Positions 61,035-63,104 of a stretch of DNA of 64,000 nucleotides are shown piece by piece (within the stretch, counting starts at the first letter, position 1; every line of letters starts with the position of its first letter). The notes beneath the pieces are model-generated. The model worked only from the letters and a program-made list of their open reading frames with translations, ran no database searches and was not told the DNA's origin. The DNA lies in the NCBI GenBank assembly GCA_902805615.1, contig CADCTQ010000001.1, positions 26,598 to 90,597 of the forward strand. Reading direction: 5' to 3'. The position numbers and the translations under genes were made by a program. Origin of the DNA: an uncultured Cytophagales bacterium. GTDB taxonomy: Bacteria; Bacteroidota; Bacteroidia; Cytophagales; 172606-1.

Positions 61035-62069
61035 TTATTTGGTGAGGGTGAGCCGGTCTTCCTGCCGTTGCACCCGGATGCCGTACGTAGCCGACAGCAC
61101 GCTGAGCAGTTTGTCGAGGTTTTCGGTGGGCAGCACGCCGGTCATGGGTTCGCGGGCGAGCCGCGGGTCGGGAATGTGCACGGGCAGGCCGTAGGTCTCT
61201 TCGATGCGGTCGGCTACCTGCCGCAGGGTGACGTCTTCGAGCACCCACCGGTGGCTTTTCCAGGAGTGGTACACCTCGGCATTTACCGTCCGGTGGTCTA
61301 CCGCCCCGTTGGCTTCCTGGTAATCCACCAGTTCACCGGGCTTCATCAGGATGGTGGCCGTGCCCTTGGCGGCGGGTACGGCGAGCCGCACGCTGCCTTC
61401 ACTGAGCACCACGCGGGTGCGGTCGTCGCGGCCCGTTACGGTAAACTCGGTGCCCAGCACTTCCACCGTCAGGCTGCCCGAATGCACCGTGAACGGGGCG
61501 GGAACCCGGCCGAGCTTCCGTTTGCGGACCTTGAAAAAGGCTTCGCCCTGCAACCATACCTGCCGGTCGCCCGGTTGCCAGCCGGCCGGGTGGCGGAGTT
61601 CGGAGTTGGCGTTGAGCACCACTTGCGAGCCGTCGGGCAGGGCAATGGTCCGGGTCTGGCCGTAGCCGGTCGCGTATTTCATCTGCCGGTACGGCCCGTA
61701 CAGGTACGCCCACAGCACCACGCCGGCGGCCAGCAGCAGGGCCACGGCGGCGGCCACCCGGTACGCAACCCCCGTTCCCAGGCGGCGCAGGGGCTTCCGG
61801 CCGGCCGGGCGCTGCGCCGCCTCGTGGGCCTGCACGGCGCCCATGATGTGGTTGAGCATCCGCAATTGCCTTTCGGGCGCCAGGTCGTCGGACCGGAAGT
61901 GCAGCGCGTGCAGGGTACGTTTTGCCTCCAGGACGGCGGGTACGCGCTGGGGGTGCTCCCGCATCCACGCCTCCCAGAACGCGTTTGCCCCGGGGCTGTT
62001 TCCCTTCACCCACTGCTGAAAATATTCGTCCAGTACGAAGTCTTCCGCGGTGTACAGCCGGTAGTCCAT
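61035..62069 (-). CDS. FecR-family anti-sigma factor
   Basis: 344 residues. An N-terminal cytoplasmic part (DYRLYTAEDFVLDEYFQQWV; HFRSDDLAPERQLRMLNHIM) binds the sigma factor; one membrane helix spans about 105-125 (VAAAVALLLAAGVVLWAYLY). The periplasmic FecR domain has TRTIALPDGSQVVLNANSEL, VWLQGEAFFKV, FTVHSGSLTVEVLGTEFTVT, and the C-terminal DUF4974-like part (LEDVTLRQVADRIEETYGLP) receives the signal from SusC-STN. ATG 62069 is chosen by family start; the frame opens at 62168. Sits between sigma and SusC genes. Confidence 0.94.
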   Translation of the reverse strand: MDYRLYTAEDFVLDEYFQQWVKGNSPGANAFWEAWMREHPQRVPAVLEAKRTLHALHFRSDDLAPERQLRMLNHIMGAVQAHEAAQRPAGRKPLRRLGTGVAYRVAAAVALLLAAGVVLWAYLYGPYRQMKYATGYGQTRTIALPDGSQVVLNANSELRHPAGWQPGDRQVWLQGEAFFKVRKRKLGRVPAPFTVHSGSLTVEVLGTEFTVTGRDDRTRVVLSEGSVRLAVPAAKGTATILMKPGELVDYQEANGAVDHRTVNAEVYHSWKSHRWVLEDVTLRQVADRIEETYGLPVHIPDPRLAREPMTGVLPTENLDKLLSVLSATYGIRVQRQEDRLTLTK

Positions 62070-62235
62070 GGGGGTGCTGGGTTGAAATGGTTGGGGTGAA
62101 TGGAGAATGGCAACCCAAAGCCCGGCCACGGAAAGCCGGCTGCAGGACCTTGTATATAGTAAATACAAGACCCGTTAGGACTTCACCATTTTTTCTTAAA
62201 AAATCTTGAGAAAAAAATGGACAAAGAAGGAACGG

Positions 62236-62503
62236 AGACGGCAGACCGGACATAAAGGAGACGGGAGACCGCAGGAAGGGAGACCGGAGGAGGCGTGCCC
62301 AGGCAACGCGGAAAATAGTGGGCAGTGCGAATGGATCGGGGTAAAGGAGAAGGAAAAAAGGGGGCTGGTGTACTTACGCATTCTGCTCTCTCTCTTTTCC
62401 CGTTTCGTCACGAGCCCGTACCGCATCCCCGCCCGGGTTCCGGTACGCCTCCTCCGGTCTCCGGTCTCCCGTCTCCGTTCGTTCCGGTCTGCCGTCTCCT
62501 TTA
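62236..62503. repeat. Large imperfect inverted repeat (GGAGACGGCAGACC arms)
   Basis: Left arm 62236-62300 and right arm 62441-62503 are inverted, imperfect copies: GGAGACGGCAGACCGGA, GGAGACGGGAGACC and GAGACCGGAGGAGGCGT appear in the left arm and their inverse in the right. It lies between the ECF sigma stop (62505) and the FecR start (62069), so it would fold in the transcript between them. Confidence 0.8.
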
Positions 62504-62504
62504 T

Positions 62505-63104
62505 TTATTTTCCCAGCAGCAGCAGGAGCAGTGCGGTGAGGACTTTGGGGGCGTTGTGCTTGAGGGTTTCGAGGGCTTTGGACACCAGGTTGTACACCGA
62601 GCGGAGTTCCAGTTGCATGACGCGGGCCACTTCGTCGTAGGAGAGGCATTCGAAGAATTTGAGGTAGACGGCTTCCCGCTGCCGGCGGGAGAGTTTGCCG
62701 ATGGCCTGTTCCAGGTACTGCTGCTGCTCCCGCGAGGTCTGGTCGTTGATCAGGCACGTTTCGGGGGAAAGGCTGATTTCGAATTCGTATTCTTCGGGAA
62801 ACGTTTCGGCGGGCCGCCGGGCGGCCGTCTGCCGGAGGCGGATGATGCGGTTGCGCAGGGCCGCAAAGAGGTAATACTTGGGCGAATCGGTCGGGCCAAG
62901 CCCTTCCCGCTTTTTCCACAGGTCCACGAACAAGTCCTGGATGCAGTCTTCCACCTGGTCGGCGTCGGGCGTGAATTTGCGGCCGTAGCCGTACAGGGCA
63001 CGCACGTGGGCATTGTACAATGCCGTGAATGCCTCCAGGCTGCCGGCCCGGAATTCGTCCCACAGTGCGGCTTCTGTTGCCCCTTGCCGAACCACTTTTT
63101 TCAT
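62505..63104 (-). CDS. ECF sigma factor (SusCD/FecR-linked)
   Basis: 199 residues: region 2 (FRAGSLEAFTALYNAHVRAL, DADQVEDCIQDLFVDLWKKR) and region 4 (IGKLSRRQREAVYLKFFECL, SYDEVARVMQLELRSVYNLV), of the type found with SusC-STN/FecR systems for polysaccharide use. It should recruit RNA polymerase to the SusCD promoter when FecR is activated. Gene order is sigma, FecR, SusC, SusD on one strand. The downstream large inverted repeat may modulate read-through. Confidence 0.94.
   Translation of the reverse strand: MKKVVRQGATEAALWDEFRAGSLEAFTALYNAHVRALYGYGRKFTPDADQVEDCIQDLFVDLWKKREGLGPTDSPKYYLFAALRNRIIRLRQTAARRPAETFPEEYEFEISLSPETCLINDQTSREQQQYLEQAIGKLSRRQREAVYLKFFECLSYDEVARVMQLELRSVYNLVSKALETLKHNAPKVLTALLLLLLGK

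Follow-up and report, generated by a model that had tools for sequence, protein, structure and literature searches.

The inverted repeat located between the minus-strand ECF sigma and fecR genes of the window (the whole 64-kb stretch of DNA analyzed here) is probably an element that spreads, and not a switch dedicated to the sigma-fecR operon, because copies of it lie behind stop codons throughout the genome and because its arms are built of heptads, as are the arms found at S23 genes of other bacteria. The repeat is likely, although by no means certain, to represent one copy of a dispersed intergenic element with heptad arms, belonging to a broader class whose members differ in their repeated units and in some cases enclose a gene of the S23/four-helix-bundle family (PF05635). 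Such an element consists of two inverted arms of purine-rich GGAGACC-type heptads around a locus-specific centre, with an arm beginning just behind a stop codon. Across the broader class, unit sequences vary by species and site, and a native terminator or a PF05635 gene is at times enclosed. The window copy has no ORF and would have come to rest between sigma and fecR.

In a scan of the whole window, this element tops the list of inverted repeats. Its arms and the Pfam-confirmed genes on both sides (Table 1) bear out a sequence-only reading, which had described a large inverted repeat separating an ECF sigma gene from fecR; TonB-receptor and SusD genes lie beyond the sigma-fecR pair and mark the host as a member of the Bacteroidota. 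The same reading had put the arms at about 60 bp: two arms are indeed present, and their length of ~65-77 nt is slightly above that figure. The gapped alignment that pairs the two arms of Table 1 is ~78% complementary, includes stretches of 92-95% complementarity, and overlaps the sigma stop codon by a few bases on the right-arm side. Without gaps, arms at 62218-62274 and 62459-62515 (57 nt) are 81% complementary, and sub-arms at 62279-62299 and 62442-62462 (21 nt) reach 95%. The core between the arms measures 142 nt. That the arms are themselves composed of shorter repeats, as had also been claimed, is evident from a lag-7 identity of 0.48 and 0.52 in the two arms, compared with 0.26 in the control. 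Furthermore, all five occurrences of the unit GGAGACNGNAGAC in the window lie inside the element (0.03 expected from shuffles). A long stem in the sigma-fecR transcript is possible: on the minus strand, from which both genes are read, the predicted fold has a free energy of -159.6 kcal/mol over 321 nt, whereas 100 shuffles of the region averaged -110.4 (z = -8.1) and none reached the native value. An Rfam search of the region returned a chance-level match only and no rRNA match.

Table 1. Features of the sigma-fecR spacer and its flanking genes (window coordinates)
Feature	Position	Strand	Basis or remark
fecR gene, start codon ATG at 62069, 344 aa	61035..62069	-	Pfam FecR and FecR_C
AT-rich block between repeat and fecR; weak candidate for a fecR promoter region	62165..62218	-	Composition
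Left arm, GGAGACC-type heptads 5'->3' on the plus strand, fecR side	62223..62299	+	Alignment and 7-base period
Sub-terminal motif common to other copies (CAGGCAACGCGGAAAATAGTGGGCAGTGCGAATGG...)	62300..62343	+	Ten-copy alignment
Locus-specific centre	62344..62400	.	Ten-copy alignment; no terminator recognised in the window copy
Second sub-terminal motif common to other copies (...CCGTACCGCATCCCCGCC...)	62401..62441	+	Ten-copy alignment
Right arm, GGAGACC-type units on the minus strand	62442..62510	-	Starts right after the stop codon of the sigma gene
ECF sigma factor gene, 199 aa, directly 5' of the element in the direction of transcription	62505..63104	-	Pfam Sigma70_r2 and r4_2

The sequence-only reading assigned this stem a possible role in setting the ratio of sigma to anti-sigma. 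Operon-specific control of this kind, in which the stem would block or process the sigma-fecR transcript, draws on the position of the element exactly between the two genes and on a predicted stem that is very stable and lies in the right transcript; moreover, the window copy contains no recognisable terminator or attenuator, so that read-through into fecR is possible. Control specific to the operon is nevertheless very unlikely, since dozens of copies occupy unrelated spacers and sigma-fecR spacers show no enrichment for long inverted repeats, which leaves the assigned role unsupported. In the window's own genome, boundaries could be drawn for 15 sigma-fecR spacers; 4 of these contain a long inverted repeat, versus 21 of 95 other same-direction gaps. 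Most sigma-fecR spacers of this genome do without such a repeat, and the palindromes in those other than the window's belong to different repeat families. Palindromes of unrelated families were observed upstream of fecR at five loci (L268, L264, L262, L253 and L260), with TTATGATTATGA directly behind the sigma stop codon in L262. The AT-rich block leaves room for an independent fecR promoter and, together with similar blocks upstream of several other fecR genes, faintly hints at one; no sigma-70-type site was found within the block in the window.

Copies of the family are dispersed over the genome. The 15-base pattern GGAGACNGNAGACNG has 154 matches in the window's own genome (694 contigs, 6.3% contamination) and its reversed control has none, while the whole element used as a query gave 137 matching pieces across many contigs. 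A census over the fetched loci yielded 111 clusters, 50 of them paired (plus units followed by minus units) and 56 in a single orientation; these counts come from listed places and are a lower bound, and some small clusters represent noise. The copies, at least 50 paired ones and dozens of single arms, occupy spacers beside unrelated genes. Within the same genus, one species carries 42 copies of GGAGACCGGA versus 5 for the control. The longer pattern is nearly missing from other genera, and the exact inner-arm string produced only five single scattered matches across ~85,000 other species genomes. Ten aligned copies share conserved arms and sub-terminal motifs and have a centre that varies in both sequence and length; elements range from ~200 to 340 bp across the family, and in some other copies the centre is a terminator-like hairpin.

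Several individual loci display further arrangements. At L026:1500-2541, GGAGACC arms stand ~1 kb apart around a 251-aa ORF that matched no Pfam or NCBIfam model; at the corresponding place in the sister species there is just a short spacer. Nested palindromes occur at L235:18547-18782 and L246:11038-11247, where the outer arms, GGAGACC or GAGTATT, surround CGCAAAGG-type arms, and these in turn surround GGATCAGGATT-type arms. In the sister species, GGAGACC-type heptads apparently lie within an open reading frame (L092, G001:C8:391478-391508).

The placement of the arms is strongly biased toward the 3' ends of genes. Counted for arms reading GGAGAC away from the gene, with genes delimited by a codon-based, home-made gene caller, the arm start falls at 0-15 nt from the end of the gene on 68 of 99 sides for 3' ends and on 3 of 56 for 5' ends (Fisher p ~8e-16). 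Paired copies are distributed over 16 convergent, 26 same-direction and 6 divergent spacers (convergent versus divergent, p = 0.05). Both arms often abut stop codons in convergent spacers; where the genes run in the same direction, some tens to hundreds of bases separate the second arm from the gene that follows.

Comparison of orthologous sites in related species indicates how these positions are occupied. Downstream of sucC, GGAGACC-type arms enclose a terminator hairpin in two species of the genus; a third species shows different repeated units, and in two other genera the terminator is bare. At the 3' end of the deoxyhypusine synthase gene, a GGAGACC shell in the window's genome and a TAATTACG shell in the sister species surround an apparently corresponding terminator. 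Behind another gene, the window's genome has a GGAGACC shell where the sister species has a GAGTTATT shell that encloses a PF05635 gene. Different shells thus occupy orthologous sites: what differs between species is the type of shell, and the site itself is constant. Among the orthologous sites compared, neither a clear target-site duplication nor a clean empty site demonstrating movement was found.

These sites bear on a second explanation, in which the elements are host structures under selection at 3' ends, with arms that shield or strengthen native terminators and the ends of transcripts, and with conversion among copies keeping these arms similar. The placement at gene 3' ends is in its favour, as are the corresponding terminator within different shells of two species and the distribution of strict terminators, which are present in 6 of 15 convergent copies, 2 of 21 same-direction copies and none of the 6 divergent copies. 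It is unlikely all the same, given that most copies, including that of the window, have no recognisable terminator and that the sucC terminator of the two other genera stands without arms.

A period of 7 bases characterizes the arms of the window copy, those of the family and those around PF05635 genes, and the GGAGACC family shows an additional 15-base spacing. Arms match their own partner better than the partners of other copies (none of 2000 permutations did as well), and the same holds for the centres. The two halves of each copy are therefore kept matched, whether by pairing, by conversion or through the mode in which copies originate.

The conventional explanation for a short, ORF-less, dispersed element with terminal inverted repeats is a MITE, which descends from a DNA transposon, is non-autonomous and is moved by a transposase acting on those repeats; the many single arms could be decayed copies. 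This origin appears improbable here, as a screen of the genome's Y1 transposases found none with GGAGACC-type ends, all five of their loci lacking flanking arms, and both the tight stop-codon placement and the locus-specific centres are atypical. The absence of arms at these five loci also led us to reject a Y1 transposase or RAYT partner. More generally, the elements share with MITEs and other small bacterial dispersed repeats the short, dispersed, intergenic inverted repeat without an ORF, but differ from MITEs in their variable heptad arms, locus-specific centres and strict stop-codon placement. REP/BIME sequences (RAYT-associated palindromes of 20-40 bp with a GTAG/CGTC tag) were ruled out by arms of 65-77 nt, a 142-nt core and the lack of end tags.

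Genes of the PF05635 family are bordered by arms of similar anatomy. Nearly all PF05635 genes first inspected by eye had inverted repeat arms. Among 49 Bacteroidota PF05635 loci, the arms of 37 scored above the 95th percentile of mismatched flanks and those of 29 above the 99th, while shifted control positions resembled mismatched pairs. On plasmids of other phyla, 6 of 10 PF05635 loci exceeded the 95th percentile; these ten (L336-L345) are few, mostly cyanobacterial with one from Azospirillum, and not all independent. The passing plasmid loci include a gene situated between the two ribonucleotide reductase genes. Another that passes, on a plasmid of Picosynechococcus sp. PCC 7003 (NZ_CP016476.1, L338), is an armed four-helix-bundle gene in a type III-B CRISPR system, where it is seated with spacers of ~36 bases between cas10 and a cmr3-type gene. 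PF05635 loci L106-L127 and L179-L208, like the plasmid loci, were seen to carry locus-specific inverted arms of 7-base units that start just behind the stop codon of the upstream gene. No PF05635 gene was found in the GGAGACC copies or on the window's contig, and the two PF05635 genes of the same genome have arms of units other than GGAGACC; the tie between the GGAGACC family and PF05635 elements is accordingly one that we infer from anatomy and shared sites. A search for earlier descriptions of heptad arms around four-helix-bundle genes, which left subscription journals and preprints outside its scope, found only a paper on the Coxiella intervening sequence, and the possible PF05635 tie is the part of these observations that may be new.

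Judged by sequence features, the family resembles known heptamer repeats and differs from them in unit, core and nesting. Rehm et al. 2015 (PMC4692102) described G-rich heptameric repeats, GGGAATC / GGGGA(T/C)T, in Xanthomonas and Nostoc, which lie close behind stop codons on the sense strand, are rare between divergent genes and frequently form inverted pairs. The elements described here likewise have heptamer units, a 7-base period, inverted pairing and stop-codon-adjacent placement. Their unit, however, is of the GGAGACC type rather than GGGANTN / GGGGA(T/C)T, for which reason they are not filed as members of that group, and they additionally possess conserved sub-terminal motifs, a locus-specific centre and nesting with other repeat families. 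The rRNA intervening sequence of Coxiella burnetii (PMC4990558) combines an S23p ORF with terminal inverted repeats and heptamer repeats. Terminal inverted repeats forming a long stem and heptamers are common to both systems, and PF05635 genes elsewhere are similarly armed; unlike that sequence, the window copy lies between two protein genes rather than in 23S rRNA and has no S23p ORF. The TAACTGA heptamer repeats of Beggiatoaceae, Cyanobacteria and some Bacteroidetes (MacGregor 2015, PMC4679880) are also dispersed and intergenic, but they are direct, positioned mostly just before start codons and hardly ever inverted.

At a more tentative level, it is possible, though less likely than not, that heptad-armed inverted elements form a single widespread class of bacterial mobile elements, which insert behind stop codons and inside operons, have 7-nt units that vary by locus, exist with or without an S23/four-helix-bundle gene, and include the rRNA intervening sequences as their ribosomal form. 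Within the favoured reading of a dispersed family, the elements most likely spread as mobile or selfish sequences, and ORF-less and PF05635-bearing forms may share the same mechanism; no enzyme for such spread was identified. Behind stop codons, insertions would be tolerated because no coding sequence is disturbed there. A long double-stranded RNA stem is a likely substrate of RNase III, and the transcribed stem of these elements would be cleaved as such, with little or no function specific to the operon.

The repeat between sigma and fecR consequently moves from being a feature of one operon to being part of a genome-wide repeat family, and cautions against taking such palindromes as operon-specific regulation. 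A single anatomy joins heptamer repeats behind stop codons, long spacer palindromes and S23/four-helix-bundle genes of unknown function. If this link is true, it would provide a handle on the function of S23/PF05635 proteins, whose expected target would be either the heptad arms or the RNA stem.
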